Below the pieces are notes generated by a model. The model saw nothing but the letters and a program-made list of their open reading frames with translations. It was not told where the DNA came from and did no database searches. Positions 1 through 41,702 of a DNA stretch of 48,922 nucleotides are shown piece after piece. Source of the DNA: an uncultured Faecalitalea sp. (GTDB lineage: Bacteria; Bacillota_I; Bacilli_A; Erysipelotrichales; Erysipelotrichaceae); the NCBI GenBank assembly GCA_946408025.1, contig CAMJQJ010000007.1, positions 1 to 48,922 of the forward strand. The letters are read 5' to 3'. Position numbers and translations under genes: made by a program. Positions within the stretch are counted from its first letter, which is position 1; the number at the start of each line of letters is the position of its first letter.

Positions 1-804
1 ACAACAATTGGCAGTGCTCATATGGAAAATCTCGGAGGAAAGAAACAAATTGCTCAAGCAAAGTTGGAAATCTTAGAGAATCTAAAACCAGGTGGTCTTT
101 TCTTATATGACAAAGAAAGTCCGGAAATTCAGGAATGCCTGCTAGAAATGGACGTTGATCCATCCAAACGTTTGATTTCCTTTGGCTTTAAAGGAGATAT
201 TTCCGTTACTTCATCTATTGATTATACAGAAAATGGAATTGAGTTTTATTGTTCAAGTCTAGCTGATAAAATCACGTTACATGCACTTGGAGATTTTCAG
301 GCAAAAAATGCTTTACCATGCATTTATGTAGCATTGGATCAGGGAATCTCGAATTCGTCAATTTTAAAAGGATTAAAAGATTTAGAAATGACGAAGATGC
401 GTACAGCACTTTTAAAGATTCATGATGCCAAGATCATAGATGATACATATAAATCCAATCCAGAAAGTGCTAAAGCGGCAATCGATACCTTGATGAAAGT
501 ACAGGCGAAAAAACATATAGCCGTGTTGGCAGATATGTTAGATTTAGGCCCAAAAGAAAACGATCTGCATGCAATGATTGGACACTATGCAGTTGAAAAA
601 AATGTGGATATAGTCTATGCGACTGGTCCTTTAAGTAAATATACGATCGAAGCATGTACAAACATAGATTCTAAATGGTTTGAAGCAAAGGATGAAATCG
701 TTGAGGAATTAAAACATTTACTGAATGAAGATTGTGCAATCTTGATCAAGGGAAGTCGTGCAATGAATATGGATGAAATTGTAGATAAATTGAAGGAGAT
801 GTAA
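1..804 (+). CDS. murF: MurF, UDP-MurNAc-tripeptide:D-Ala-D-X ligase, 5' truncated
   Basis: This is the C-terminal two thirds of MurF, which adds the terminal D-amino-acid dipeptide to UDP-MurNAc-tripeptide in the cytoplasm. The frame is open from base 1 (TTIGSAHMENLGG), matching the MurF segment after the central ATPase core, so the ATG at 22 is internal and the true start lies off the window. The N-terminal domain and P-loop are missing. The C-terminal substrate domain holds IIDDTYKSNPESAKAAID, the family DDxYxxNPxS signature. The next gene starts 6 bp downstream and encodes the ligase that makes its dipeptide substrate. If that ligase makes D-Ala-D-Ser, as predicted, this MurF must accept it. 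The identity is secure; the truncation is due to the window edge. Confidence 0.93.
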   Translation, partial: TTIGSAHMENLGGKKQIAQAKLEILENLKPGGLFLYDKESPEIQECLLEMDVDPSKRLISFGFKGDISVTSSIDYTENGIEFYCSSLADKITLHALGDFQAKNALPCIYVALDQGISNSSILKGLKDLEMTKMRTALLKIHDAKIIDDTYKSNPESAKAAIDTLMKVQAKKHIAVLADMLDLGPKENDLHAMIGHYAVEKNVDIVYATGPLSKYTIEACTNIDSKWFEAKDEIVEELKHLLNEDCAILIKGSRAMNMDEIVDKLKEM

Positions 805-809
805 ATTAT

Positions 810-1853
810 ATGTTGAAATTAGGTGTTGTCTTTGGTGGACAGAGTAGTGAATATTCTGTTTCTTTACACTCTGTTGCTTCTTTTTTAAGACAGATTCATA
901 ATGAAAAATACGATATTACGATGATTGGCATTGACCAGAATGGGCAATTTTATGTTTATGATGGTTCGATTGATGATATAGAGCATGATCATTGGATTCC
1001 TCAGGCTACAAAAGCTGCGTGGGTTCATAAAGGAATCATGGCTTTGGATGGAAAAAATACAGTAAAAGAATTAGATTGTGTATTCCCGGTTTTACATGGA
1101 AAGAATGGGGAAGATGGTTGTGTACAGGGTTTATTGGAATTGATGAATATCCATTATGTTGGATGTGATGTTATGTCTAGTGCAATTTCCATGGATAAAG
1201 AAATCATGCATATTTTATGTGATGAAGCAAATATACCTTGCGCTGATTATGTTTGTTTAAAAGCAAATGAAGATAATCCTACTTTCGAAATGATCCAGGA
1301 AAAAATTTCACTACCTTGGATCGTAAAACCATGTAATGCGGGAAGCAGTTATGGTGTTCATAAAGTAGAGAATAAAGAAGAATTTGAAGAAGCTTGTAAA
1401 GATGCTTTCTTCTATGATGGTCGTGGTAAGATCCTAGTTGAAAAAGTAATTGAAGGCTTTGAGATTGGCTGTGCTGTTATGGGAAATGAAGAAGTATTTA
1501 CAGGTAGCTGTGATGAGATTCAGATTTCTGGAGGAATCTTTGATTTTGAAGGAAAATACGAAATGAAAGGGGCTGAAATCATCTGCCCTGCACGAATCGA
1601 TGAAGAAACTTTTACCAAGGCCAAAGAACTAGCAGCTAAAACATATAAAGCTATGAATTGTTGTGGAATGGCTCGGGTAGATATGTTTGTAACGTCTCAA
1701 AAAGATGTAATTTTAAATGAATTGAATACTATTCCGGGTTTTACAGCTACTTCACGTTATCCATCAATGATGAAAGCAGCTGGAATTGAATTTAGTGATT
1801 TAATTGATAAATTGATCGATCTAGCAATGCAAAGGACGATTTCAGCATGTTAA
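810..1853 (+). CDS. VanG-like D-Ala-D-Ser (or D-Ala-D-Ala) ligase
   Basis: This is an ATP-grasp D-alanyl-D-X ligase of 347 aa. Visible signatures are VFGGQSSEYSVSLHS at the N-terminus, FPVLHGKNGEDG, IVKPCNAGSSYG, and NELNTIPGF near the C-terminus. It resembles VanG throughout, for example VGCDVMSSAISMDKE and GFEIGCAVMG. Asp235, Phe244 and Arg316 fall where I recall VanG having Asp243, Phe252 and Arg324, its reported D-Ser determinants; the offset is a constant 8 residues. Ordinary D-Ala-D-Ala ligases usually carry a non-basic residue, often Leu, at the Arg position. The start has only a weak SD (GGAGAT) within the end of murF. The 3' end overlaps the racemase by 7 bp. D-Ser specificity is inferred from residues recalled from memory. 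Confidence 0.9.
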   Translation: MLKLGVVFGGQSSEYSVSLHSVASFLRQIHNEKYDITMIGIDQNGQFYVYDGSIDDIEHDHWIPQATKAAWVHKGIMALDGKNTVKELDCVFPVLHGKNGEDGCVQGLLELMNIHYVGCDVMSSAISMDKEIMHILCDEANIPCADYVCLKANEDNPTFEMIQEKISLPWIVKPCNAGSSYGVHKVENKEEFEEACKDAFFYDGRGKILVEKVIEGFEIGCAVMGNEEVFTGSCDEIQISGGIFDFEGKYEMKGAEIICPARIDEETFTKAKELAAKTYKAMNCCGMARVDMFVTSQKDVILNELNTIPGFTATSRYPSMMKAAGIEFSDLIDKLIDLAMQRTISAC

Positions 1854-2995
1854 AGAGTTATAGCCGAGCTTGGTGTGAAATTGATTATAAAGCAATCGAT
1901 CATAATTTGGATGAAATTCAAAAACTGGTGGGAAAAACTAAGATCATGGGAATCGTTAAGGCCAATGCCTATGGTCATGGAGATGTGGCTTGTGCAAAGC
2001 AAATGGCTAAGTGGGGTGTTGATTTCTTTGCCGTTTCCAGCGTTGATGAAGCTTTGAATCTAAGAGAAAATGGAATTGATCAAGATATCTTGATTTTAGG
2101 ATATACACCTGCTGAACATTTTCATTACTTATTCGAAAAAAACATCGTACAGTCACTGGTCTCTTTTGAGTATGCTCAAAAATTAAATGCATTTGCCAAA
2201 GAGAACGATGTGAAGATTCGTTGTCATTGCAAGGTGGATACAGGAATGTGTAGAACTGGTATTATATACCAGGATCAAGATAAGCATATGGATCAGATTG
2301 TTGCGGAATATCGCCTATCAAATTTGAATATTGAAGGAATCTTTTCGCATTTTCCTGTTAGTGATGATCTTGGAAAAGATAGTCGTACATTTACCGAGAA
2401 TCAGATTCGATTGTTTAGAGAAGTTATTGACAATCTAAAAAAGGAAGGCATTGATTGTGGTATCAAGCATATTCAGAACAGTTATGGAATTTTAAATTAT
2501 ATGGATCTTGGTATGGATTATTGTCGTCCAGGTTTGTTGTATATGGGCGTTACAAGTGATGATCATGTTCCTATTCTTTCAAAACCAAACTTTATTCCAA
2601 TCATGTCGATCTATGCCAATGTTTCTTTGGTGAAATGGATCCAAGAGGGACAAAGTGTTAGCTATGGGCGTAATTTTATCGCCACAAAGCCAACTAAGGT
2701 AGCTACTATATCGATTGGATATGCAGATGGGATCCCTCGTCTATTAAGTAATCAGGGATTTGAGGTATTGATTCATGGAAAACGTTGCAAAGTAGTTGGA
2801 AATATATGCATGGATCAATGTATGGTTGATGTAACAGATGTAGAAAATGTAAAAGAAGGAGATATTTGTTGTTTTGTTGGTCAAATGGGGAATGAAAGAG
2901 TTACGATTGATACGATTAGTCGTTTAGCCAAGACCATCAATAATGAAACGATGAGCGCTGTTGCTGCTCGTGTGCCACGTTTAGAGAAGAGGTAG
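1847..2995 (+). CDS. Alanine/serine racemase, VanT-like catalytic domain
   Basis: This is a fold-type III PLP racemase of 382 aa that makes D-Ala and probably D-Ser. The PLP lysine lies in IVKANAYGHGD (Lys38) and the opposite catalytic tyrosine in VSYGRNF (Tyr273). Near the C-terminus the motif reads TINNETMSAVAARVPR. In Geobacillus alanine racemase the same place reads TINYEVPC, with Tyr354 limiting substrate size. Asn here (codon 366) is the residue found in VanT serine racemases, and Tyr-to-Asn is known to raise serine activity. The gene overlaps the ligase and precedes a membrane protein resembling the other half of VanT. It could be the cell's only alanine racemase with dual activity, or a dedicated serine racemase. 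Confidence 0.93.
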   Translation: MLKSYSRAWCEIDYKAIDHNLDEIQKLVGKTKIMGIVKANAYGHGDVACAKQMAKWGVDFFAVSSVDEALNLRENGIDQDILILGYTPAEHFHYLFEKNIVQSLVSFEYAQKLNAFAKENDVKIRCHCKVDTGMCRTGIIYQDQDKHMDQIVAEYRLSNLNIEGIFSHFPVSDDLGKDSRTFTENQIRLFREVIDNLKKEGIDCGIKHIQNSYGILNYMDLGMDYCRPGLLYMGVTSDDHVPILSKPNFIPIMSIYANVSLVKWIQEGQSVSYGRNFIATKPTKVATISIGYADGIPRLLSNQGFEVLIHGKRCKVVGNICMDQCMVDVTDVENVKEGDICCFVGQMGNERVTIDTISRLAKTINNETMSAVAARVPRLEKR

Positions 2996-2998
2996 ATT

Positions 2999-4015
2999 AT
3001 GAAAGTAAAGAGAAAATATGCCGCAATTGATATTGCTAAATATGTTTCGGCATTATTGGTTGTATGCATTCATACATATCCGTTTTATGAAATTAGTGAA
3101 ACGTTTAATACGTTTTTTATGCAAACGATATGTCGAATTGCTGTACCATTTTTCTTTACGACTTCTGGTTTCTTCTTTTTTCGTAAATATGGCGATGATC
3201 CTGAAGAAAACACGAATAATCTGCGCAAATATATAATGCGCTTATTAAAGATTTATTTGATTTGGACCGTGATCTATCTTCCATATACAATATGGGATCA
3301 GTATCAGGCAGGGTTTAGTATTCTTGGTGTTTTCTCTTATATTCGAGATTTCTTCTTAAATGGAAGTTATTATCATCTATGGTTCTTACCAGCCTTGATG
3401 TTAGCAAGCGTGATCGTCTTCTATTTATATAAAGAAAAAGGTTTGATGTTTACCTTAAAGGTAAGCTTAGGTGCTTATTTTCTAGGTTATTTGATCAATG
3501 TTTATACACCAGTCTGGGAAAGCATTCCAGGAATTAACTTCTTGTTTGCGTTTTTTACAAAAACTTTAGTGACAGCACGAGATGGAATCTTCTTTGGGCC
3601 AATCTTTGTGGCTTTAGGGCTTTTGTTGGCGAAAACAGGACGTTTACCATCTAGAACAAGCCTAGGAGGCTTTGTAATTAGTTTTTTATTAGTGGTTGTG
3701 GAAGTGTTGATCTATAATATGACAGGCATATTGCGAGATTTAACGAGCATGTATTTGTTTTTGGTACCAGCAGTCTATTTCCTTGTAAATTGGTTGTTAA
3801 CAATCAAAATGCCATATAAACCAATTTATAGAGTATTAAGAAATGATTCGTTATTGATTTATACATCACATATTTTATTCGCAAAAATTTTATTGATATT
3901 GATGCCAAATGCACATATCGTTATTTATTTTTTGACAATTGCCCTAGCGCAGGCTTTTGCAAGTCTTGTGATGCATTATAAGGAAAGATTTCCTGTATTA
4001 GAAAATTTATTGTAG
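2999..4015 (+). CDS. Acyltransferase-3 family membrane protein, VanT N-domain-like
   Basis: This is a polytopic membrane protein of 338 aa with about ten hydrophobic segments. The N-terminus has DIAKYVSALLVVCIHTYPF, with the His typical of acyltransferase-3 proteins, followed by RIAVPFFFTTSGFFFFRKYG. Enterococcal VanT racemases carry just such a domain fused in front of the racemase, where L-Ser uptake has been proposed. Here the domain is a separate gene placed directly after the racemase, 3 bp downstream. The likeliest role is supplying L-Ser to the racemase or anchoring it at the membrane. O-acylation of an envelope polymer is the alternative. The family call is firm and the function is inferred from context. 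Confidence 0.8.
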   Translation: MKVKRKYAAIDIAKYVSALLVVCIHTYPFYEISETFNTFFMQTICRIAVPFFFTTSGFFFFRKYGDDPEENTNNLRKYIMRLLKIYLIWTVIYLPYTIWDQYQAGFSILGVFSYIRDFFLNGSYYHLWFLPALMLASVIVFYLYKEKGLMFTLKVSLGAYFLGYLINVYTPVWESIPGINFLFAFFTKTLVTARDGIFFGPIFVALGLLLAKTGRLPSRTSLGGFVISFLLVVVEVLIYNMTGILRDLTSMYLFLVPAVYFLVNWLLTIKMPYKPIYRVLRNDSLLIYTSHILFAKILLILMPNAHIVIYFLTIALAQAFASLVMHYKERFPVLENLL

Positions 4016-4018
4016 CTT

Positions 4019-5608
4019 ATGATTAGAGTATTTCAAGTTAAATGTGCATTTGAAAATGAGATTGAAGCACAGTTGATTAAAAAACTGCATATAAAAAAAG
4101 AAGATCTTTTGGGGTATACAATACACCGCAGAAGTGTGGATGCCCGCCATCAAAAGGTCTTATTTTCTTATGTCATAGACTGCTCATTAAAAAATGAGAA
4201 AAAAGTTTTAAAGAACAAAGATGTTCAACCTTGTCCGGATGAAACATATCATTTTGTTTCTAGTGGTAGTCGTATAATGAATACAAGACCTGTAGTCGTA
4301 GGATTTGGTCCAGCTGGCATGTTTGCATCATTAATCCTAGCTGAAGCAGGATATCAACCTATTGTAATTGAGCGTGGTAGTATGGTTTCTATTCGAAAAC
4401 AGAAGGTAGATACTTTTTGGCAAACGGGAAAGCTGGATCCAGAATGCAATGTTCAGTTTGGTGAAGGTGGTGCCGGAGCTTTCTCAGACGGCAAATTAAC
4501 GACGCGTTCTAAAGATTCAAGAGCACGAAAAGTTTTAGAAGAATTAGTTGGATTTGGCGCTAAAGAAGATATTTTGATCGATGCTCATCCACATATTGGA
4601 ACAGATGACTTTTTGAAGATCATTGAAAATTGTCGTAAAAAGATCATTGATCTCGGAGGAATGTTTTATTTTGATTCATGTTTAAAAGATATAAAAACAA
4701 AACAGAATAAATTGGTAGAAATTAAGATCAACCATACATGGATTCCATGTGAAAATATGATCTTAACAATTGGACATAGTGCAACTGACACGATACGAAT
4801 GTTACATCAAAATAGAGTCATGATGGAAAATAAACCATATGCGATTGGAGTTCGTATCGAACATAAACAAGAATACATAAACCGAGCAATGTTAAAAGAC
4901 TATGCTACGGATCCTAGATTGATTCCAGCAAGGTATCAGCTAACACATACAGCTTCCAATAATAAAGGTGTCTATACATTTTGTATGTGTCCAGGTGGGT
5001 ATGTCATTCCTTCCAGTAGTTCTAAAGAAAAACTTGTGGTCAATGGAATGAGCTATGCATCAAGAAGTGGAGAGAATGCTAATAGTGCTTTATTAGTACA
5101 GGTCAATGAAGAAGATTATGGAAGTGAACTTTTTGCCGGACTAAAGTATCAGGAAGACTTGGAAGAAAAAGCGTATCATATGGCCGGTGATTATAAAGTG
5201 TGTTTGCAATTGGCAAAAGATTATTTAGAGAATAAGGTTTCATCTGGTTTGGATGATGTAAAACCAACTTATGCCTTGGGATATCGATTCGTTAATTTAA
5301 ATGAATTATTTGATCCAGCAATCAATCAGGCGTTACATGAAGCCTTGATTGCCTTTGAAAAACGCGTGCCTGGGTTTGTAAGTGAAGGGGCTTTATTAAG
5401 TGCTGTTGAATCAAGAAGTAGTTCTAGTGTTCGAATTATTCGTGATCATGATCTTAAATCTAACATTCAAGGAATCTATCCTGGAGGTGAAGGAGCTGGA
5501 TATGCCGGTGGCATTATGACAAGTGCTATCGATGGAATAAAATGCGCAGAAAGTATTATTTGCCAATATCAAAAACATGATACAATGAAGCAGAAAATGG
5601 AGGGATGA
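4019..5608 (+). CDS. FAD-dependent dehydrogenase, COG2509-type
   Basis: This is a flavoprotein of 529 aa. An N-terminal domain of about 85 residues is followed by a Rossmann FAD-binding motif, VVVGFGPAGMFASLILAEAG, near residue 92. Next comes GEGGAGAFSDGKLTTR, a signature of the NAD(FAD)-utilising dehydrogenases related to the gidA/HI0933 group. Near the C-terminus GIYPGGEGAGYAGGIMTSA closes the FAD site. The physiological substrate is unknown to me. It starts 3 bp after the membrane protein and ends 1 bp before yqeG, so it is co-transcribed with the cell-wall and ribosome-assembly genes. Confidence 0.85.
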   Translation: MIRVFQVKCAFENEIEAQLIKKLHIKKEDLLGYTIHRRSVDARHQKVLFSYVIDCSLKNEKKVLKNKDVQPCPDETYHFVSSGSRIMNTRPVVVGFGPAGMFASLILAEAGYQPIVIERGSMVSIRKQKVDTFWQTGKLDPECNVQFGEGGAGAFSDGKLTTRSKDSRARKVLEELVGFGAKEDILIDAHPHIGTDDFLKIIENCRKKIIDLGGMFYFDSCLKDIKTKQNKLVEIKINHTWIPCENMILTIGHSATDTIRMLHQNRVMMENKPYAIGVRIEHKQEYINRAMLKDYATDPRLIPARYQLTHTASNNKGVYTFCMCPGGYVIPSSSSKEKLVVNGMSYASRSGENANSALLVQVNEEDYGSELFAGLKYQEDLEEKAYHMAGDYKVCLQLAKDYLENKVSSGLDDVKPTYALGYRFVNLNELFDPAINQALHEALIAFEKRVPGFVSEGALLSAVESRSSSSVRIIRDHDLKSNIQGIYPGGEGAGYAGGIMTSAIDGIKCAESIICQYQKHDTMKQKMEG

Positions 5609-5609
5609 G

Positions 5610-6134
5610 ATGGCTTTATTAAAACCGAAATACTATGTTTCCAGTTTTGAACATATGTCGATAGAGCGTTTAAAACAACAGGGAATCAAGCTATTATTAT
5701 GTGATATTGATAATACATTGGTTTCTTATGATGAAAAACATCCAAGTCCTTCTGTCGTTGCGTTCATTGATCGAGTGAAAAGTTCTGGAATCGAAGTTGC
5801 GCTTTGTTCTAATGCAACCAAAGAAAGGGCAACACGATTTTCTAAAGATCTAAATGTGTCTACAACTTATTACTTTTCTATGAAACCATTGCCGAAAAAT
5901 TTTATTCGAGCAATGAAAAAACATAATTTAAAAGCCAATCAGGTTGCCATTATCGGGGATCAGATGTTTACAGACATATTAGGTGGAAATCTTGCAGGAC
6001 TTTATACGATATTGACTGCGCCAATCGCAGTGAAAGATAGAGGCGTTACGAAAATCAATCGTTTCTTTGAAAATATTGTATATAAAGTATTAGAGCATAA
6101 AGGAGATTTTAAGAGAGGTGAATTCGATGACTAA
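5610..6134 (+). CDS. yqeG: YqeG family HAD phosphatase
   Basis: This is a HAD-superfamily IIIA phosphatase of 174 aa. The nucleophile motif is LLLCDIDNTLVSYD (DxD), the threonine/serine motif lies in VALCSNATKER, the conserved lysine in the KPLPKNF region, and the last acidic motif is IIGDQMFTDILGGNLAG. It is the usual first gene of the Bacillota block yqeG-yqeH-yhbY-nadD-yqeK-rsfS, which is conserved here apart from the absence of aroE. GGAGGG lies just before the start, and the 3' end overlaps yqeH. The in vivo substrate is not known; a ribosome-related role is suspected only from neighbours. Confidence 0.92.
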   Translation: MALLKPKYYVSSFEHMSIERLKQQGIKLLLCDIDNTLVSYDEKHPSPSVVAFIDRVKSSGIEVALCSNATKERATRFSKDLNVSTTYYFSMKPLPKNFIRAMKKHNLKANQVAIIGDQMFTDILGGNLAGLYTILTAPIAVKDRGVTKINRFFENIVYKVLEHKGDFKRGEFDD

Positions 6135-7206
6135 ATATTGTAAAGGGTGTGGCGCAAAGCTGCAAAATGATGATAAAGATGCAATCGGATATGTTCCTAC
6201 ATTGGATGCATCGTATTGTGAAAGATGTTTTCGAATTCGTCATTATGGAGATGTTACAATTTCCATGGCACAGAAAATCGAATCCAATCAAACGCTAGAT
6301 AAGATTGCCAAAGTCAAGGGAGTGATCTTTTGGGTGGTCGATCTTTTTGCATTTGAATCAAACATGATTTCTCGCTTGAATCAAAAATTGGACACCGATG
6401 AAATTGTCCTTGTCTTAACTAAACGTGATGTTCTCCCTAAAACATTAAGTGATAAAAAAATTCTAGAATTTGTCAATCGCCGTTTAGATGAAGAAGGTAT
6501 CAAAGTAAAAGATATCGTGATTTGTGGATATCTTTTAAAACATAATGAACAGTCAAAGGCATGCATTGATGAAATCTATTCCAAGATACAAATGTATCGT
6601 AAAGGAAGAGATATTGTCTTTATGGGAGTTGCCAATGCAGGGAAATCAACAATCTTAAATCAATTGCTGGCTATGGAAGATCTAACGACATCTAGACATC
6701 CTGGTACAACATTGGACCTTGTGCCAATTGAACAAGATGGATATACGATTTATGATACCCCGGGGATTGAGAATCATCATAGTGTATTGACTTTTTTGAA
6801 TTCAAAAGATCTAAAAATGGTTATTCCAACCAAACCTATCAAGCCTTTTGTTTCTCAGATTTATGAAGATCAATCTTTTGCGGCAGCTGGGCTTGCAAGG
6901 TTGGATATCGTAGTAAAAGGAAAAGCCAGTGTAGTAGGATATTTCTCCCGTTCTTTATCAATTCATAGAGGAAAATTGGAAAATGCGGATAATCTTTGGA
7001 ACAAACATTTAAATGAAATGCTGGTTCCTTGCCTTGATACTTCTATGTTGACAATGCATACATTTCAGGCGCCAAAAGTAACAAATGAAAAATTGGATGT
7101 CGTGATTCATGGGCTTGGATGGTTTTGCATAAGTGGGCAGATTCAAGATGTTTATGTTCGTGTTCATAAAGGCATCAATGTTACATTCAGAAAGGCGATG
7201 ATCTAA
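6127..7206 (+). CDS. yqeH: YqeH, circularly permuted GTPase for 30S assembly
   Basis: This protein of 359 aa has an N-terminal treble-clef zinc finger (CKGCGAKLQ ... CERCFRIRHY) and a circularly permuted GTPase. The G4 motif TKRD comes first, near residue 98, then G1 GVANAGKST and G3 DTPG. In Bacillus subtilis YqeH is needed for 30S subunit biogenesis. I chose ATG 6127, preceded by GAGAGG, over the in-frame GTG at 6118 used by the ORF track. The gene overlaps yqeG by 8 bp and its stop overlaps the yhbY start (TAATG), so translation of the block is probably coupled. Confidence 0.95.
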   Translation: MTKYCKGCGAKLQNDDKDAIGYVPTLDASYCERCFRIRHYGDVTISMAQKIESNQTLDKIAKVKGVIFWVVDLFAFESNMISRLNQKLDTDEIVLVLTKRDVLPKTLSDKKILEFVNRRLDEEGIKVKDIVICGYLLKHNEQSKACIDEIYSKIQMYRKGRDIVFMGVANAGKSTILNQLLAMEDLTTSRHPGTTLDLVPIEQDGYTIYDTPGIENHHSVLTFLNSKDLKMVIPTKPIKPFVSQIYEDQSFAAAGLARLDIVVKGKASVVGYFSRSLSIHRGKLENADNLWNKHLNEMLVPCLDTSMLTMHTFQAPKVTNEKLDVVIHGLGWFCISGQIQDVYVRVHKGINVTFRKAMI

Positions 7207-7496
7207 TGTTAAATAATAAAGATAAAAAATATTTACGAAAATTAAGCATGTCATATAGACCTCTTTTCCAAATTGGAAAAGATGGAATCAGCTATAATTT
7301 GATTAAAACAATAAGTGATTCTTTAGAAGCTCATGAGCTTGTCAAATGCAATTTGTTGCAGACATGTCCAATTGATACAAGAGAAGCGGCTATTGAGTGT
7401 GCCAGTAATACACATAGTGAGATCGTACATATTGTAGGACATACATTTGTATTGTATCGTCGCTCTAAAGAAAACAAGCTGGGGCTTAAAAAATGA
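7206..7496 (+). CDS. yhbY: YhbY family RNA-binding protein (CRM domain)
   Basis: This is a single CRM-domain protein of 96 aa. It opens with KYLRKLSMSYRPLFQIGKDGIS, the family's LR-x-G/K opening, and has a late HIVGHTFVLYRRSKEN segment. YhbY homologues bind pre-ribosomal RNA of the large subunit. The length is typical. The start ATG shares its A with the yqeH stop codon, and the end overlaps nadD by 4 bp (ATGA), so it is translationally coupled on both sides. Confidence 0.93.
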   Translation: MLNNKDKKYLRKLSMSYRPLFQIGKDGISYNLIKTISDSLEAHELVKCNLLQTCPIDTREAAIECASNTHSEIVHIVGHTFVLYRRSKENKLGLKK

Positions 7497-8509
7497 GGAT
7501 TGCGATCATAGGAGGGTCTTTTGATCCAATTCATTATGGTCATATCCATATGGGGCTGGAGTCAATTAAACAATTGAAGGTGGATGAAGTCTGGTTCATG
7601 CCTACAAAGATTACACCACTAAAAGATCGTGAATTGACCAGTGTTGAAGATCGTGTATCTATGATCAAGCTCGCAATTGAACCATACGCTAATTTCAAGC
7701 TTTGTACACTGGAATTAGAGCGTGAAGAGAAAAGTTATACGATCGACACATTAAGAGAGTTAAAGAAACGATATGCACATGAATTCTATTGGATCATTGG
7801 AAATGACCAACTTGAACAGTTTGATCGTTGGAAAGATCCAGAAAAACTAGTTAAAATGGCTCAGTTTATTTGCTTTGATCGAGATCATATGTTGACAAAG
7901 ACATCTTATGATATCAAAAGATTACATATGGAATGCATGCCGGTCTCTAGTTCTGAGATTCGTATGGGAAATAAATTGAATTATTTACCATTGAAGGTTT
8001 TAGATTATATATATGCGAACAGGTTATATGTTAAAGATTTTATAGCCAGTCGTGTACCTGAACATCGTTATAAGCATTCGCTATCTGTTGCCAAACTTTG
8101 TGAAGAGTTTGCCCAAAATAATGGCTTGGATATCAATGTGGCATATTATGTTGGCTTGTTTCACGATGTTTGTAAGGCGATGCCTAAAGATCGAATGTTA
8201 TGCTGGATCAAGGCTATTTGTCCAGAAAATGAAAAATATGCACCTCCGGTTTGGCATGGTTTTGTAGGGGCAGAAGTTGTAGATCGTATCTTTTATATCA
8301 AAGACTGGCGCATCAAAAACGCTATTTATCATCATGTGCTTGGAACAAGTAAAGATCCATACGCGATGGCAGTTTTTTGTGCAGACAAATTAGATCCGTT
8401 AAGAGATTATGATACTAGTAAAGGTATCCAGCTTTGTAACCAAGATCTATATAAAGGCTTTTTAAAGGTAAAAGAAGATAATGAGCGATATCTTAAGAAA
8501 GGAAAATAA
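7493..8509 (+). CDS. nadD: NadD-YqeK fusion: nicotinate mononucleotide adenylyltransferase + HD hydrolase
   Basis: This 338 aa protein contains two enzymes that are separate genes in B. subtilis. Residues 1 to about 187 are NadD, which converts NaMN to NaAD: IIGGSFDPIHYGH holds the HxGH nucleotidyltransferase motif, and MPVSSSEIR is the ISSTxIR-like motif. Residues 190-338 are a YqeK-type HD domain with HRYKHSLSVAKL, LFHDVCK, and late VFCADKLDPLRDY. YqeK proteins hydrolyse Ap4A. There is no stop or reading-frame break between the parts. Fusions of this type occur in some Mollicutes-related lineages. It supplies the NAD step downstream of nadABC, found at 29-32 kb. Confidence 0.93.
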   Translation: MRIAIIGGSFDPIHYGHIHMGLESIKQLKVDEVWFMPTKITPLKDRELTSVEDRVSMIKLAIEPYANFKLCTLELEREEKSYTIDTLRELKKRYAHEFYWIIGNDQLEQFDRWKDPEKLVKMAQFICFDRDHMLTKTSYDIKRLHMECMPVSSSEIRMGNKLNYLPLKVLDYIYANRLYVKDFIASRVPEHRYKHSLSVAKLCEEFAQNNGLDINVAYYVGLFHDVCKAMPKDRMLCWIKAICPENEKYAPPVWHGFVGAEVVDRIFYIKDWRIKNAIYHHVLGTSKDPYAMAVFCADKLDPLRDYDTSKGIQLCNQDLYKGFLKVKEDNERYLKKGK

Positions 8510-8510
8510 A

Positions 8511-8849
8511 GTGGAATTTAAAGAAATCGTATTAAAGGCAATTAGTGAGAAAAAGGGATTTGACATTAAAGAATATGATACGCGTAGCTTAACTCCATTT
8601 ATGGATAGCATGATCGTTGTAAGTACAACTAATATTCGTCAAAATAATGCGATAGCACAGAATATCAAGGATCGTTTAAAGGAAAATGGATTTGATGGTA
8701 CGATTCGTATCGAAGGAAATGCCGATTCAAAATGGCTTTTGATTGATCTAAAAGAAATTGTAGTACAGTTGTTTGTCAAGGATGAAAGGCAGGTGTATCA
8801 GCTGGATCGTTTGTATCGAGATGTTCCAGTAATTGAATATGATTTATGA
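8511..8849 (+). CDS. rsfS: RsfS ribosome silencing factor
   Basis: This 112 aa protein of the RsfS/YbeB/Iojap family binds L14 on the 50S subunit and blocks subunit joining in starvation. Visible family segments are DIKEYDTRSLTPFMDSMIVV, the conserved NAIA-type helix, EGNADSKWLLIDLKEIVVQLF, and YQLDRLYRD near the end. I placed the start at GTG 8511, preceded by AAAGGA, one base after the nadD/yqeK stop. The ORF-track ATG at 8481 has no SD and would overlap the upstream gene. It overlaps the methyltransferase by 11 bp. Confidence 0.93.
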   Translation: MEFKEIVLKAISEKKGFDIKEYDTRSLTPFMDSMIVVSTTNIRQNNAIAQNIKDRLKENGFDGTIRIEGNADSKWLLIDLKEIVVQLFVKDERQVYQLDRLYRDVPVIEYDL

Positions 8850-9540
8850 TACATTAGCGCAATATTATGATGCTTTAGTAAAAGATGAAGAGGCATCCAG
8901 AATGTGGGTGAATTGGATCGAATCCAAATGTAGCCCTTGCGATGTGCTTGAACTAGCCTGTGGCAGTGGAGAAATTACCGAAATGCTGGTACAGGATGGT
9001 TTTGATGTTTCTGCTCTTGATCTTTCTGATGAAATGATTGAACAGGCAAAACAAAAAGATACAGGCAACAAGATTCATTTTTATTGTCAGGATATGAAAG
9101 ATTTATCCAATTTTTCTAAATTTAGTGCAATCTTTTGTCTTTGTGACAGCTTTAATTACCTACTTGAAAAAGAAGAAGTTTCTAAATTTTTTAAAGAGGT
9201 CTCTGACCATTTAAAAAAACAAGGATATTTTTTCTTTGATACCCATTCGCTCGATCGCCTGGAAGAGTTTGAAGATGAGTTTAATGAAACAGGTTCTTTT
9301 GAAGACTGCGATTATCAATGGTCAATCATGAGTGAAGATGATCTAATCTATCAAGATTTTGCGTTTTATTTTCAGGAAGGACATGTTGTTCAAGAACATC
9401 ATATTCAAAGGGTGTATGATCCAGTCTGGCTAGAAAAAGAATTATCAAAACACTTTAATATTCTTTCTGTTAAAACAGATTTTGATCTTGAAGGAATTCA
9501 GGAAGGCGAAAAGTATTTTTATATTTGTCAAAAGAAATAA
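8839..9540 (+). CDS. Class I SAM-dependent methyltransferase
   Basis: This is a 233 aa Rossmann-fold methyltransferase. Motif I is VLELACGSGEITEML near residue 36, and the acidic end of strand 2 is SALDLSDEMIEQAKQK. FSAIFCLCDSFNYL marks motif IV. Genes like this commonly follow rsfS in Bacillota, but the substrate is unknown. I prefer ATG 8839 (MIYDTLAQYYD) over the track's TTG 8833 because YDxLAxYYDxL is the usual opening. It lacks a good SD and overlaps rsfS by 11 bp, which suggests coupled translation. Confidence 0.88.
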   Translation: MIYDTLAQYYDALVKDEEASRMWVNWIESKCSPCDVLELACGSGEITEMLVQDGFDVSALDLSDEMIEQAKQKDTGNKIHFYCQDMKDLSNFSKFSAIFCLCDSFNYLLEKEEVSKFFKEVSDHLKKQGYFFFDTHSLDRLEEFEDEFNETGSFEDCDYQWSIMSEDDLIYQDFAFYFQEGHVVQEHHIQRVYDPVWLEKELSKHFNILSVKTDFDLEGIQEGEKYFYICQKK

Positions 9541-9549
9541 GGGATATAT

Positions 9550-10143
9550 ATGATTATAGGAATAGCTGGAGGAAGTGGTTCAGGAAAGACTACATTTACC
9601 AATGCTATAAAAGAAATATTTAAAGAGGATATTTTGATCATTCATCATGATGACTATTATAAAGATCATTCCAATTTGAGCTTTGAAACAAAAAAACATA
9701 TCAATTATGATCATCCAGATGCATTGGAAACGAGTTTGTTGGTTGAACATGTAAAACAACTAAAGGCAGGTCAACCAGTTGAAAAACCGCTTTATGATTT
9801 TTCGATACATGATCGAAAAGGCAGTGAGACGATCTTTCCTAAAAAAATCATTATTTTAGAGGGCATCCTTGTATTAGAAAATGAAGAATTAAGGAACTTG
9901 ATGGATCTAAAAGTCTATGTAGATGCGACAAGTGATGAAAGAATTTTACGACGTATTCTTCGTGATACAAAAAACCGAGGAAGAACAGTTGAAGATATAT
10001 GCGATCAATATTTAAAAACTGTGAAACCTATGCATGAAAAATATGTTGAGCCTACAAGAAAACATGCGGATATCATTATAAATGGTGGGATGAATAAAAT
10101 GGCTCTTGAGTTAATCAAAACAAAAATAGAATCAGTTTTATAG
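9550..10143 (+). CDS. udk: Uridine kinase
   Basis: This 197 aa kinase phosphorylates uridine and cytidine in pyrimidine salvage. The P-loop IAGGSGSGKTTF lies at residues 4-15. DHPDALETSLLVEHVKQL is the typical uridine kinase substrate segment, followed by YDFSIHDRKG, and RRILRDTKNRGRTVEDI is the lid region. The length is slightly shorter than the usual 205-215 aa but nothing appears to be missing. The start lies 9 bp after the methyltransferase and mtnN follows 8 bp later. Confidence 0.92.
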   Translation: MIIGIAGGSGSGKTTFTNAIKEIFKEDILIIHHDDYYKDHSNLSFETKKHINYDHPDALETSLLVEHVKQLKAGQPVEKPLYDFSIHDRKGSETIFPKKIIILEGILVLENEELRNLMDLKVYVDATSDERILRRILRDTKNRGRTVEDICDQYLKTVKPMHEKYVEPTRKHADIIINGGMNKMALELIKTKIESVL

Positions 10144-11017: not shown

Positions 11018-12277
11018 ATGTTATTAAAAAATATCTCTGAAGAGGAATTTAGTAATTTTTATGATGAATATGAACAAAAATGCTTTTGGCAATCGACATC
11101 AATGGCTCATTTTGAATCTTCACATGGATGGAATGTTCATTATTTAGGCTTATATGATGAGAATGTGATTCGTGCAGCTACGATATTGATTTCTAAGAAA
11201 GTGATGGGGAAGTATGCTCTTTTTGAGGCATTGCGAGGATTTTTGATTGACTATGATGATCTTGACCTTGTGGACGCATTTTTAACAGAATTAAAAATAT
11301 ATCTTCACGATCATAATTGTTTATATATGAAAACCGATCCATATTGTGAATACCAGCCTCATGATAAAGAAGGGAATGCCCTAGAAGGTCATAAAAGAGA
11401 TGATCTAATAAATTTGTTTGAAAAACATGGCTTTATTCATCAAGGCTTTCGTAATGGGTCTGACAATAATTATGAACCACGTTGGATGTCTATACTGTCA
11501 TTGGAAGGTAAAGATGAAGACGGTATTTTGAAAAATTGTGATTCAAAGACTCGACAAAATATTGTCAACACACAAAAAACCGGCCTAAAAATAGACCGTC
11601 TGAACAAATCGGAGTTAAATCGTTTACATGATATGGTCTCTACAACCGGAGAACGACGTCATTTCATGAATCCGAATCTTTCCTACTATACAGATTTTAT
11701 GACGAGTTTCCATGAAAATATGCAGGCATATTGTGTGTATTTGGATACACGTGATTACTATGAACGTTACAAAAAGAATTATGAAGAACTTTTAAAGGAA
11801 AAAGACCACATATACAAACTAATTGAAGAAACGGATTCCAAAAAGAATCGTTCAAAACTAAAAAATTGTGAGAATAAGATCACAGCGACTTTAAAGCGAA
11901 TTGATGAAGCTAAAAAACTTAGGGATGAATATGGCGATAAGATTGATCTAGCGGCAGCTATGTATGTCATCAATGATCGTGAAATCGTATATTTATTTAG
12001 TGGATCTAATGATAACTTTAAACATTTCAAAGCTGCGTATGCCTTGCAGTGGCACATGATTAAATACGGTATTGAGCATCATATCAAGCGTTATAATTTT
12101 TATGGTATTAGCGGCATATTTTCACCTGATGATGAAGAATATGGAGTATATCTTTTTAAAAAAGGTTTTGATGCAGACGTTATCGAGCTCATAGGAAATT
12201 TTGAATATATAGATCGAAAAAAGACATTTACTGTTTATGAAGAACTAAGAAAAATCAAACATCTTGTACGAAAATAA
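11018..12277 (+). CDS. FemABX-family peptidoglycan interpeptide-bridge aminoacyltransferase
   Basis: This is a 419 aa Fem transferase, an enzyme that adds amino acids from aminoacyl-tRNA to the lipid-linked precursor side chain. It has two GNAT-like halves, with WQSTSMAHFESSHGW at the N-terminus and ILKNCDSKTRQNIVNTQKTGLKI in the middle. A lysine/glutamate-rich antiparallel coiled coil at about residues 245-310 is typical of FemA/FemX. The second half ends with GISGIFSPDDEEYGVYLFKKGF. The amino acid added cannot be told from sequence. It converges on, and overlaps by 23 bp, the serine-hydrolase-like gene on the other strand. Confidence 0.93.
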   Translation: MLLKNISEEEFSNFYDEYEQKCFWQSTSMAHFESSHGWNVHYLGLYDENVIRAATILISKKVMGKYALFEALRGFLIDYDDLDLVDAFLTELKIYLHDHNCLYMKTDPYCEYQPHDKEGNALEGHKRDDLINLFEKHGFIHQGFRNGSDNNYEPRWMSILSLEGKDEDGILKNCDSKTRQNIVNTQKTGLKIDRLNKSELNRLHDMVSTTGERRHFMNPNLSYYTDFMTSFHENMQAYCVYLDTRDYYERYKKNYEELLKEKDHIYKLIEETDSKKNRSKLKNCENKITATLKRIDEAKKLRDEYGDKIDLAAAMYVINDREIVYLFSGSNDNFKHFKAAYALQWHMIKYGIEHHIKRYNFYGISGIFSPDDEEYGVYLFKKGFDADVIELIGNFEYIDRKKTFTVYEELRKIKHLVRK

Positions 12278-13466
12278 CATCTTTTGATCCAGTAAGAGAT
12301 TTTTGGTAATCAAGTATGGTCTTGGATACTTCTTGCATCATGTCATACATTCGACTGACTTGATTCGAAAAGATAACAAGAATATAGTCTCTTCCAGGAA
12401 GATAAACAATTCCACCATCGTGATATAGTAGATCAGCAGCGCCTGTTTTATGGGCGAATTCAATACCTTTATCCAAGCCTGCTTGGATTTCATCACGATC
12501 TTCACATGCTTTTAAGATAGAAATCATGTCTTGGCAGGCTCTGTCTGATATGATTTCTTTTTTATATAATTTTTCAAAAAGAGTACCAATGTCTTTTGGA
12601 TTGGAAGTATTGCCTCCTCCATCGGTAAAGAAGTTCTCACCAGGAAGAAGTCCATGGTGAAGTTCTGTGTTTTCTAAGCCGAGTTCAATGCACATCTGAT
12701 TAACTTGATAAAGACCATAAACTCCATTGCCACCACCGAGCAAAGCAGCTAAATTATTGTATGCTGTATTGCTGCTGATGGTGATCATTTGTTCGATTTC
12801 AGTGGCATGAGCAGCATAATCTATATTTCCGTTCTCGATTTCTTGAAAGACTTTGATTAATGTAGGTACTTTGATCATGCAGCAAGGATACATATTTTTA
12901 GGATTAATATAAAAGGATTGGCTAGTGCGTAGATCTTTAAAATATACAGAGGTATCACCGTCATATTTTGACAGAACCTTTTGCACTTGCGCCTGGATTT
13001 CTTCAATATCAAAATCTACGTTTTGTTTGGTCTTTTTTCCATTTTTGTCGTAATAATCCAGATGCAGCTGTCCATCTTTTGAAAATGCTACATAAGTATC
13101 TTTTGCCATTTTTCCATTATTATCAAAATAGTATGTATGATTATTAATGGTTTGAAAGCTATATAGTTTATGGCCATTTTGACCATAATAATATGTGCTT
13201 TCTTTTTGTGTTACAAATCCCTTTTTCATAAATCCGGAATCCTCATCAAAATAATATGATTTACCATTGATTTCAAGATTTCCATGATGTAGGTGACCAT
13301 TTTGATCCACATAAACCATGATGGCATCTGAAAAGGGGAGAATTTGTACAAATCCTCTTTGGGTTGATAACCAGACACAAAACACAAGAATTAAGATTGA
13401 AAAGATTCCAACAGACAAATAGATTTTTCCAGTGAAATCCAAATGTAAAAACTTTTTTTGCTGCAT
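12255..13466 (-). CDS. Cell-wall-binding serine-hydrolase-like protein with Cys in place of the nucleophile Ser
   Basis: This 403 aa exported protein has a membrane anchor at residues 11-31, then at least three choline/glucan-binding-like repeats (NGKSYYFDEDSGFMKKGF). From about residue 160 it has a class A beta-lactamase-like (beta-lactamase2) domain. The SxxK motif reads Cys196-Met-Ile-Lys199, the SDN motif reads Ser231-Ser-Asn233, and the KTG box is intact at 340-342. No Glu166-type ExxLN loop is visible, so a beta-lactamase call is not justified. Its paralogue at 14715 has Ser and SDN. The protein may be a thiol variant, a binding protein or inactive. The start is supported by AGAGGTC. 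Confidence 0.85.
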   Translation of the reverse strand: MQQKKFLHLDFTGKIYLSVGIFSILILVFCVWLSTQRGFVQILPFSDAIMVYVDQNGHLHHGNLEINGKSYYFDEDSGFMKKGFVTQKESTYYYGQNGHKLYSFQTINNHTYYFDNNGKMAKDTYVAFSKDGQLHLDYYDKNGKKTKQNVDFDIEEIQAQVQKVLSKYDGDTSVYFKDLRTSQSFYINPKNMYPCCMIKVPTLIKVFQEIENGNIDYAAHATEIEQMITISSNTAYNNLAALLGGGNGVYGLYQVNQMCIELGLENTELHHGLLPGENFFTDGGGNTSNPKDIGTLFEKLYKKEIISDRACQDMISILKACEDRDEIQAGLDKGIEFAHKTGAADLLYHDGGIVYLPGRDYILVIFSNQVSRMYDMMQEVSKTILDYQKSLTGSKDVIFVQDV

Positions 13467-13556
13467 GAAAATGACCTCTTTTATTATATGTTATTATAAT
13501 ATTTAATTATTGTATCTAAAATCGAGATAAGTGGTCTTGTTTTGTACTTAACAGGT

Positions 13557-14705
13557 TTAATAGTCACCACCCTCTACATGTAGGTATTCTTCAAGAGTTA
13601 GTCCAGATTGATAAATATTTATAGCTTCACTTCCAATATATCGCACATGCCAAGGTTCTGCCATATAGCCGGTGATGCTTTCTTTACCACTTTGATAACG
13701 AACGATAAAACCATATTTATGAGCATTTTGAGCTACCCATTGAGCTTCATTAGGGCTTTCCAACAGAGCACCATTTGGTTGTATCAAATCAAAAGCCAAC
13801 CCGGTTTGATGTTCAGAATATCCAGGTCTTGCCGAGAATGTGTCGGCGCTTGCCTGACCATATGAGTTAACATAATTTTGATAAAGATTACTTTGATATT
13901 GATAACTACGATATCCGCTGTAGGAATTGCTAATTGAAAGTCCAAGACTTTGCATATCGGCAATCATTTTTTGTAGTTGAGATAAGGCCGTTGAATCTTC
14001 TTGAGAACCATAGTTTGCCGGTAATGGATGCTTCTTGTTAACAACGAGTATACCATTTACATAGTATGGTTCAATGGTGATTTGAGGTGTTGAAGGATTA
14101 TTTTGACTTTGTGTGGTTGAATTATTTTGATTAGAAGAAGTATCATTTTGATTTTCTTCATTTTGAATGACAATATTGAATTCTTTTGAAGTAGAATTAT
14201 TGTATTTATCTGTAGCTTTGATTTTGCCAATATATGTTCCAGGGGTGCTAAAATCAACATTTTGGGTATCAAAGCTTATAGAACATTCACTTAGATCTTC
14301 TACAATGAAATACTTAGAAAAATCATAATTGTTACCATTGAGAGCTATATCTATAGAATCTGAGGAAGTAGTGATTTTTGGCTTTGTTGTATCTTTTACT
14401 TTGATCGTTAGTGTTTTTGAGTGATCAATCAAAGCATGGTAAGTTAGCATAATTTTGTAAGTTCCAACAGCCGGATAATTTTTATCGGTTTCATTTTTGA
14501 TTTTAGATGTATCTAATTGAATATTTGTTGGTTCAATGAAAGATGAATTAAACAATTCTTTTGTATTAAGATTTATGGACTTTCCATATTCCATTGTATA
14601 AGATGTTTGTTTTAAGGAAGGCAAGGAAAAATAAATTGCCAAAGCAATGAGGATTATACAAATAGCTGTGCCTATACCAATATAAATTTTAGTATTTTTC
14701 TTCAT
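13557..14705 (-). CDS. VanY-like M15 D-alanyl-D-alanine carboxypeptidase with Ig-like domains
   Basis: This 382 aa membrane-anchored protein has a transmembrane segment at about 7-28 and one or two Ig/HYR-like domains at 45-185. A Ser/Asn/Gln-rich linker reaches residue 205, and a C-terminal zinc peptidase domain completes it. The VanY signature SARPGYSEHQTGLAFD supplies His299 and Asp306, and EPWHVRYIG supplies Glu350 and His353, so the metal site is complete. Family members trim the terminal D-residue from peptidoglycan stems. It starts 9 bp after the upstream serine-hydrolase-like gene, with SD AGAGGGA, so the two are probably co-transcribed. It could trim D-Ala- or D-Ser-ended stems. Confidence 0.92.
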   Translation of the reverse strand: MKKNTKIYIGIGTAICIILIALAIYFSLPSLKQTSYTMEYGKSINLNTKELFNSSFIEPTNIQLDTSKIKNETDKNYPAVGTYKIMLTYHALIDHSKTLTIKVKDTTKPKITTSSDSIDIALNGNNYDFSKYFIVEDLSECSISFDTQNVDFSTPGTYIGKIKATDKYNNSTSKEFNIVIQNEENQNDTSSNQNNSTTQSQNNPSTPQITIEPYYVNGILVVNKKHPLPANYGSQEDSTALSQLQKMIADMQSLGLSISNSYSGYRSYQYQSNLYQNYVNSYGQASADTFSARPGYSEHQTGLAFDLIQPNGALLESPNEAQWVAQNAHKYGFIVRYQSGKESITGYMAEPWHVRYIGSEAINIYQSGLTLEEYLHVEGGDY

Positions 14706-14714
14706 AGTATCCCT

Positions 14715-15950
14715 CTATTCTAAAGTGAATAAGTTTATTTCGTATGTATAGAATAAATTTGACATTTCTTTAAAAAAATCTGTTTTATTTGAAATTTGAT
14801 CTGTAAATAATACAAGAATATAATCTTTATCAGGAATGTACACGATACCACCATCTAGATATAGATCATAAGCCCATCCGGATTTATGAGCGAACTGTAT
14901 TGCATCAGGTAAACCTTGTCGAATCGCTCTTCGGTCAGCGCATTGTTTTAATAAATCTAACATCTGATCACATGCATCTTGCGAAATGATTTCGCCTTGA
15001 TACAATAAGTCAAATAATAAACCTATATCGCTAGGACAGCTGATGTTTGAACCGCTATCACTAAAATAGATATCACCGGGAGATAAACTATGATGCAGTT
15101 GTGTGTTCTGTAATCCTAGTTGCATCATATATGTATTTACAATTTGTAATCCTTTGATTCCATCTCCATTTCCTAACATGGTTATTAGGGCATTGTAAGA
15201 AGTATTATCACTGTGTATGATCATATTTTCTAAATAAGTTTGACAGGAATCATACTCTAATAAACCTTGATCTATATAGTTATATACAGTAACTAAAACG
15301 CAAACCTTGATGATCGAACATGGATAGAATGTATTATCATTGATGGAAATCTCTTGTTGTGTTCTTAAATCTTTAAAATATAAGCCGACATTCCCTTCGT
15401 ATTTATTAATGATAGTTTGAGCTTGCATTAAGAGCGTATCTTCGTCAATTAATAATTCACCGTATTCATTAAATATTTTTCCTTTGTATTGATTTGTTAC
15501 CATTTTTCCATCCTCATCAAAATATGATATCTGGTTCTTTTCATTTATTGAAATTTTCTTAAATTGATTCTTAACTTGTTTTCCATCTTCATAAAAATAG
15601 TAATAGTCATCTTCAATTCTATAGAATCCTTTTACCATGGTGCCATCTTTTTTGAAATAATAGGTATTGTCATCTATATCAGCAAAGCCAGTCTGCATGA
15701 CTCCAGTTTCTTCATCGAAATAGTAAGTTTGGCTTTCTATAGTATGGAATCCATAAAGAAAATTACCTTCTTTTGTCCTATAAACAATCTGGTCTTGTTT
15801 AAATATGTTTTTTGGCATAAAGCCAGATCGAGAAGAGGCAAACATAAAAGACAAAAGAAAAATGCCTATACATACAGAACATAATATGATTAAAACCTTT
15901 CTTTTCTTCTTTTTGCGCTCTTCACTCATAATGTTATTACTCTTATTCAT
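14715..15950 (-). CDS. Cell-wall-binding serine hydrolase (beta-lactamase-like fold), intact active-site motifs
   Basis: This 411 aa exported protein is a paralogue of the 12255 gene. It has a lysine-rich N-terminus, a transmembrane anchor near 19-40, and several cell-wall-binding repeats (YYFDEETGVMQTGFADIDDN). Its catalytic domain carries Ser212-Ile-Ile-Lys215, Ser247-Asp-Asn249, and a Lys-Ser-Gly box in FAHKSGWAY. A class A Glu166 loop is not evident, so it may be a peptidase, esterase or penicillin-interacting protein rather than a beta-lactamase. The ATG at 15950 directly abuts a TATAAT. The next in-frame ATG, at 15929 (MSEERKKKK), is an equally likely start. A vanY-like gene follows in the same unit. 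Confidence 0.83.
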   Translation of the reverse strand: MNKSNNIMSEERKKKKRKVLIILCSVCIGIFLLSFMFASSRSGFMPKNIFKQDQIVYRTKEGNFLYGFHTIESQTYYFDEETGVMQTGFADIDDNTYYFKKDGTMVKGFYRIEDDYYYFYEDGKQVKNQFKKISINEKNQISYFDEDGKMVTNQYKGKIFNEYGELLIDEDTLLMQAQTIINKYEGNVGLYFKDLRTQQEISINDNTFYPCSIIKVCVLVTVYNYIDQGLLEYDSCQTYLENMIIHSDNTSYNALITMLGNGDGIKGLQIVNTYMMQLGLQNTQLHHSLSPGDIYFSDSGSNISCPSDIGLLFDLLYQGEIISQDACDQMLDLLKQCADRRAIRQGLPDAIQFAHKSGWAYDLYLDGGIVYIPDKDYILVLFTDQISNKTDFFKEMSNLFYTYEINLFTLE

Positions 15951-41113: not shown

Positions 41114-41117
41114 GAAT

Positions 41118-41702
41118 TCAATCCTCCTTAAAATATTTTGCATCCACCTCTTTTAAATATGCTAATCGTGGACGCAGTCCTTCTTTGATCAGTTGACCAT
41201 TCTCTAAAAACCATTTATATGGAATAAAGCTTTTTGTCGTCTGATGATATTTTTTGATAAGCAATGGAGCATCGACCAGAAAGGTTTGCTGATAATGTGT
41301 AAAACGAATAATAAAGAAACCGATACCTCCATGAATCTTTACTTTTTTTAGATGTTCTATTTGATGATCATGTATCATCAATTTTGGAAATCCGGTTTTA
41401 TTTTTTGTTTCCTTTGCCTCAAAGTCGATATAACGTCCCCTATATACCCCATTGTAATCTGTAGTAGAAGGAGTTTTATAATAAGCTTCTACGATCTTAG
41501 CCTTATTTCTAGCCGGATAATCAACTCGAACCACTTGAACAGGGGTTGGTTTCTTATAAATTAATGCGATATCACAGGCTCTGTAATACTTGTTAGAATC
41601 ATTAATATCTGATTCAAGGCTCATTCCTCTTTGTGAATAAGTTGTGCTGGACTGTGATAAATTAACCGGCGAAATAGCGGTAGGATATTTTATCGTGCTC
41701 AT
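41118..41702 (-). CDS. recU: RecU Holliday junction resolvase
   Basis: This 194 aa nuclease resolves Holliday junctions in recombination. It has RGMSLESDINDSNKYYRACDIALIYKKPTPVQVV, the RecU opening. YRGRYIDFEAKETKNKTGFP contains the acidic and Lys catalytic residues. HDHQIEHLKKVKIHGGIGFFIIRF follows. The track start (TTG 41738) coincides with the -35 of a good promoter, so I use ATG 41702, which lies 7 bp after the -10 and has no SD. A leaderless transcript is likely. It is followed 4 bp later by the PBP gene. Confidence 0.93.
   Translation of the reverse strand: MSTIKYPTAISPVNLSQSSTTYSQRGMSLESDINDSNKYYRACDIALIYKKPTPVQVVRVDYPARNKAKIVEAYYKTPSTTDYNGVYRGRYIDFEAKETKNKTGFPKLMIHDHQIEHLKKVKIHGGIGFFIIRFTHYQQTFLVDAPLLIKKYHQTTKSFIPYKWFLENGQLIKEGLRPRLAYLKEVDAKYFKED

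Follow-up and report, generated by a model that had tools for sequence, protein, structure and literature searches.

The first genes of this contig, from an uncultured Faecalitalea sp., encode a ligase, a racemase and a membrane protein that resemble parts of the VanG and VanT systems, and they raise the question of whether the lineage makes D-Ser for vancomycin resistance, makes it for its ordinary cell wall, or makes D-Ala alone. The window, i.e. the whole stretch of DNA that was analysed, is 48,922 nucleotides long. We propose, with a probability of roughly three in four, that the locus encodes a housekeeping pathway for D-Ala-D-Ser which runs constitutively and relies on a dual Ala/Ser racemase (Table 1). 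In this pathway the racemase would make both D-Ala and D-Ser, with Asn366 substituting for the gate tyrosine and so leaving room for the hydroxymethyl group of serine. D-Ser would then pass to the co-encoded VanG-like ligase to give D-Ala-D-Ser, and MurF, the enzyme that joins the D-Ala-D-X dipeptide to the wall precursor, would add it. The split-off VanT membrane domain could serve in the uptake of L-Ser or in acyl transfer. Since no other Alr or D-Ala:D-X ligase was found, D-Ala-D-Ser would be the normal, constitutive end of the precursor and not an induced resistance state, and the D-Ser-ended precursor would have a lower affinity for vancomycin. We infer the enzyme activities, the D-Ser in the wall and the weaker vancomycin binding from sequence.

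Table 1. Coordinates of the locus and of the residues discussed in the text (window positions).
Feature	Position	Strand	Basis or remark
murF, 3' part, cut by contig start	1..804	+	TIGR01143 184 bits, Mur_ligase_C/M
VanG-like D-Ala:D-X ligase, predicted D-Ala:D-Ser	810..1853	+	best PDB match VanG 4fu0
Ligase Asp235 = VanG Asp243 (Gly in Ddl)	1512..1514	+	
Ligase Phe244 = VanG Phe252 (Tyr in Ddl)	1539..1541	+	
Ligase Arg316 = VanG Arg324 (Met in Ddl)	1755..1757	+	
VanT-type PLP racemase (fold III), predicted dual Ala/Ser	1847..2995	+	sequence, fold, profile
Racemase Lys38, PLP lysine	1958..1960	+	invariant in 22 relatives
Racemase Tyr213 (Tyr in VanTG; Ala in 5yyc, C. difficile Alr), gate-covarying	2483..2485	+	
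Racemase Tyr225 (Tyr in VanTG; Met in 5yyc, C. difficile Alr), gate-covarying	2519..2521	+	
Racemase Tyr273, equivalent of catalytic Tyr265	2663..2665	+	invariant in 22 relatives
Racemase Asn366, Tyr354-equivalent gate	2942..2944	+	phmmer, MAFFT alignments
Separate VanT membrane-domain gene (acyltransferase-3)	2999..4015	+	3 nt after racemase

The genes are arranged in the order murF, ligase, racemase and membrane protein, followed by ordinary housekeeping genes. The racemase start overlaps the ligase stop by 7 nt, the gaps elsewhere are 3-5 nt, and no terminator-like site was found in window positions 1-6200. A whole murF (453 aa) occupies the same place in a genome of the same genus (G001, locus L039), and more than 20 genera in the family share the order murF-ddl-alr.

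The first-pass annotation of this DNA had placed an asparagine at the position of Tyr354 of the Geobacillus alanine racemase, and this was borne out. The codon is AAT, codon 366 of the 382-aa racemase frame, which agrees with the numbering Asn366 given there, and the codon before it also encodes Asn. The alignment of TINNETMS with TINYEVPC of the Geobacillus enzyme, on which that annotation relied, is correct and gap-free; TINYEVPC begins at chain residue 351, so that its Y is Tyr354. In phmmer searches, TINNE lined up ungapped with TINYE in two alanine racemases of solved structure, 4luy and 5yyc, and with ITNE in 4ecl, the catalytic domain of VanTG, and a MAFFT alignment of 87 racemases set Asn366 in the same column as Geobacillus Tyr354. 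An alignment with a tyrosine at this position had been named as an observation that would speak against the idea; the position was checked and holds asparagine, as it does in VanTG and in every one of the 25 racemases from the window's own lineage. The racemase therefore lacks the inner-gate tyrosine of an ordinary Alr and carries the asparagine of VanT, whose presence at the Tyr354-equivalent site, also part of the original claim, is described in PMC3485190. The further premise, that the change from Tyr to Asn raises serine racemisation, holds: PMC5025676 describes Tyr354Asn in Geobacillus Alr, for Patrick et al. 2002, as yielding a bifunctional alanine/serine racemase. An altered gate alone is no proof of serine racemisation, since the gate residue is Gln in 4y2w, a structure deposited as an alanine racemase, and since one locus among the relatives (L080) pairs a serine-type ligase with a Tyr-gate racemase.

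The rest of the enzyme points in the same direction. Its best PDB match by sequence is VanTG 4ecl (280 bits; next 255), and among the NCBIfam profiles it scores 425 bits with vanT-G-Cterm and 325 with alr, i.e. 100 bits apart. A Tyr-gate Alr of the same order, used as a control, gave 293 bits with the vanT-G profile against 337 with alr, and the racemase of a vanG-like operon in the order gave 517 with the vanT-G profile. The window racemase passes the alr cut-off but misses the curated vanT-G-Cterm cut-off of 460, and we therefore do not name it VanT-G. In comparisons of its AlphaFold model (pLDDT 90), VanTG was the closest structure (Z 46.1, rmsd 1.4 A), followed by a structure at Z 43.0, with Geobacillus Alr at Z 39.8. 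Before the tree was built, the gate column was removed along with two columns that co-vary with it (Tyr213 and Tyr225, which also tell Asn-gate from Tyr-gate enzymes). The tree united VanTG, VanT-C, VanT-N and the window racemase in one 73-row clade (SH-aLRT 99), which also contains two Tyr-gate rows; the racemase thus groups with the characterised VanT types over the Tyr-gate Alr. Inside this clade it belongs to a 25-row set (SH-aLRT 99), all of whose members have Asn at the gate. The PLP lysine and the catalytic tyrosine of fold-III alanine racemases are both in place and invariant in relatives, so the racemase looks active. To judge from sequence and model, it is of the VanT type, despite missing the VanT-G cut-off. 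VanTG itself still prefers Ala over Ser.

The ligase scores 408 bits with the NCBIfam VanG profile, below the cut-off of 495. It has the equivalents of Asp243, Phe252 and Arg324 of VanG, which we take to be the serine determinants of that enzyme, at positions where the Ddl controls have Gly, Tyr and Met. The same Asp/Phe/Arg triad occurs in VanA-type ligases too, and it therefore marks a ligase as other than Ddl and not as one for Ser alone.

A search for a second alr elsewhere in the genome, proposed as a check by the first-pass annotation, found none in the window's own genome, which is 79% complete; it holds a single Ala_racemase_C match, and the only other Ala_racemase_N match is a YggS-type protein. 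A second D-Ala:D-X ligase was likewise rejected there, as the VanG-like ligase is the only Dala_Dala_lig_C match above 60 bits and the other ATP-grasp match is a biotin carboxylase. The genome of the same genus mentioned above (G001, 95% complete) agrees on a single racemase and a single ligase. Across the 15 genomes of the lineage (a 14-row clade and the basal G042), ten of which reach 90% completeness or more with contamination of 5% or less, each has a single Ala_racemase_C protein, adjoining the ligase, and a single full Dala_Dala_lig_C gene, which in G014 lies in two pieces on different contigs. Further ligase matches in other genomes of the clade were discarded as weak; they fall mostly in frames of about 1070 aa, presumably carbamoyl-phosphate synthase. 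Other members of the family possess a different ligase of about 390 aa (P0004), which scores as a D-Ala:D-Ala ligase. Within the 25-row set, the 11 rows that adjoin the 14-row clade of the window have this Ddl (G057 in a divergent form), and it is absent from all 14 rows of the window clade (14/14) and from the more basal G042. The simplest reading is that the serine-type pair entered the mur operon first and that the old ligase was lost at the base of the window clade; the absence of Ddl from G042 would be a separate loss. That D-Ala-D-Ser is the only precursor end throughout the lineage, following a single loss of Ddl after the module had entered the mur operon, is a claim to which we would give even odds.

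A single racemase and a single ligase could also sustain a mixed pathway, in which a bifunctional racemase and ligase would produce D-Ala-D-Ala and D-Ala-D-Ser in a proportion set by the L-Ser and L-Ala pools. The ligase needs D-Ala at its first site in any case, and phosphate was released by the VanC2 enzyme whether it was given D-Ala by itself or D-Ala together with D-Ser (PMC12004154). Against such a mixture, the serine-type residues of ligase and racemase are kept throughout the clade with no exception, and the dedicated Ddl was dropped; we consider it unlikely, though deserving of some weight.

The housekeeping D-Ala-D-Ser pathway gains further support from the membrane gene. Its product matches the NF033132 profile at residues 4-327, as well as NF000033 (vanT-L-mem) and Pfam Acyl_transf_3, and in the tree of such proteins it falls in a clade of fused and separate VanT membrane domains (SH-aLRT 97), which excludes 17 of the 18 acyltransferase-3 proteins of the order that do not adjoin a racemase. 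The membrane (AT3) domain linked or fused to a VanT racemase is thus present here as a separate downstream gene. Its K14-x10-H25 motif is intact, and according to PMC9558356 acyltransferase-3 proteins need K-x10-H as an essential motif. The VanT membrane domain has been put forward as an L-Ser transporter in a source that calls its role unknown (PMC9558356), and a case for a function as acyltransferase has been made (PMC12423673). The gene is missing at the ligase locus in four relatives (G025, G028, G042 and G057), while G040 has it on another contig, so the supply of D-Ser may not strictly depend on it. The adjacent VanT membrane gene, together with the lack of a second alr or ddl in the genomes searched, is the strongest evidence added here to the first-pass annotation, which had not named it. 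Whether the locus is the housekeeping counterpart of the vanG module, with the membrane protein kept for a wall job outside resistance, we hold to be evenly balanced.

These observations also bear on the possibility that the pair are ordinary housekeeping enzymes, an alanine racemase with a D-Ala:D-Ala ligase, in which the residues that set specificity drifted or were inherited without serine activity. The Gln gate of 4y2w, the alr score of the racemase and the position of the genes in a mur operon without resistance regulators are all compatible with it. The gate, Tyr213, Tyr225, the ligase triad and the VanT membrane gene nevertheless agree with one another and are conserved in the clade, and it is a VanG-like ligase that the Ddl-less lineage retained; we regard ordinary enzymes as decidedly improbable.

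A vanG-type operon would have VanXY beside the ligase and VanR/VanS. No VanXY was found beside the ligase in the window, nor at the related loci with murF, and reading the translations of window positions 1-10143 revealed no VanR or VanS frame, the sequence upstream of murF lying beyond the contig. The VanX-type family PF01427 has no match in the window's own genome and is present in just 3 of the 15 lineage genomes, a rarity that one would expect of cells in which no D-Ala-D-Ala needs removing. VanG and VanT are the closest solved structures to the ligase and the racemase, which would suit an acquired, inducible vanG-type vancomycin resistance operon. Its VanXY, VanRS and VanX-type parts are absent, however, in the scopes just given, the gene order is shared across the family, and the lineage has no other ligase from which induction could switch; such an operon is very improbable indeed.

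Gate residue and ligase type were compared among relatives, from which 80 racemase regions were taken, with 82 racemases of the order counted. An Asp/Phe/Arg ligase adjoins 50 of the 82, and the gates of these are Asn in 46 and Ile, Pro, Val and Tyr in one each; the other 32 include 24 with Tyr and two with Asn, both of the latter at contig edges, where a ligase could be missing. Fisher's test gave p 9e-16 for this association, with kinship ignored. Outside the order, 85 racemases (the 80 best hits from other genomes and five plasmid records) comprised 70 with Tyr and 15 with Asn. All 13 that are linked to a serine-type ligase have Asn (13/13), and 70 of the 72 without such a ligase have Tyr; the two unlinked Asn enzymes are one with an Asp/Leu/Arg ligase and one near a contig edge. 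Chance as the origin of the Asn gate was rejected in view of how often Asn occurs in racemases without a linked ligase. On the tree, the label needs few changes and just three well-supported independent pairs remain, which leaves a sign test without power, and the association was rejected as independent evidence. The co-occurrence of gate and ligase is largely shared ancestry, and an Asn gate marks the D-Ser module well but does not point to many origins. D-Ser supply to the adjoining VanG-like ligase, as the first-pass annotation had it, thus stands as the best reading, but its description of the gate as independent support was too strong, as gate and ligase were mostly inherited together.

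Several loci seen in this comparison are of interest in their own right. L080 (G010) and L098 (G064), of the same genus, have racemases beside serine-type ligases with a gate of Tyr in the former and Asn in the latter, which makes them a natural pair for testing the gate residue. In L084 (G024) and L085 (G027), the gate is Ser or Asp and the adjoining ligases have Tyr/Tyr/Leu, not Asp/Phe/Arg, possibly reflecting another D-amino-acid specificity. The serine-type ligase lies in a single frame of about 785-811 aa in L049 (2623-4974), L052 (2431-4854), L080, L092, L096 and L098; the extra upstream part is at the place of murF in other loci, and these frames are probably MurF-ligase fusions. Three plasmid records (L239, L242 and L243) have racemases automatically labelled 'vanT gene in vanG/vanL cluster'. 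Plasmid labels of this kind were kept out of the evidence, and the three matches, when checked, had a Tyr gate, a residue that would separate them from real VanT.

Other wall genes lie further along the window. At 11018-15950, a FemAB gene adjoins a VanY-family DD-carboxypeptidase (13557-14705, minus strand), and two beta-lactamase-family proteins with choline-binding-type repeats flank them, forming a second wall-related cluster. At 38582-41143 (minus strand), a class A penicillin-binding protein has a C-terminal tail that repeats short Cys- and GGTW-containing units.

If the proposed D-Ala-D-Ser pathway is true, the lineage would be a naturally poor target for vancomycin because the usual D-Ala-D-Ala end is missing and not because of an acquired resistance operon, and vanG or vanT calls made in this lineage by resistome surveys would be misreadings of core cell-wall genes. 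Together with its sister group, which kept both ligases, the lineage would then show a stepwise route for a switch in wall chemistry. The separate, conserved VanT membrane gene with its intact motif makes the role of this domain testable outside resistant pathogens.

Known systems share much with this locus. The VanT racemases (VanTG 4ecl, VanT-C, VanT-N and the split VanTm/VanTr of VanL) have the same fold, Asn gate and Tyr213/Tyr225 as the window racemase, which is 38-40% identical to VanTG, and both they and the window link a VanT membrane domain with a D-Ala:D-Ser-type ligase. In VanT, however, the membrane part precedes the racemase, whereas the window has a separate gene for each, that of the racemase coming first, the locus is without VanXY and VanRS, and the racemase is the sole one of the cell. 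The vanG-type operons of the order (family f2, e.g. L068) have a homologous ligase, membrane part and racemase. In this sister family the typical order is ligase, VanXY, membrane part and racemase, unlike the window with its different order and no VanXY, and its genomes have a separate Ddl elsewhere (Gly/Tyr/Met, GYM type), which the window lineage does not. Intrinsic synthesis of D-Ala-D-Ser occurs in Enterococcus gallinarum (VanC), and reportedly in Clostridium innocuum, which may be a relative in the same family as the window lineage. The VanC cluster of E. gallinarum (L241) includes VanXY, VanR and VanS, whereas the window lineage lacks both VanXY at the locus and a separate Ddl. Tyr354Asn of Geobacillus stearothermophilus (Patrick et al. 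2002, as conveyed in PMC5025676) is the same substitution at the same position, but it is an engineered single change, whereas the asparagine of the window is natural, clade-wide and accompanied by co-varying residues. The parts are known, and what is new is their occurrence as sole ligase, sole racemase and a split VanT with the racemase first.
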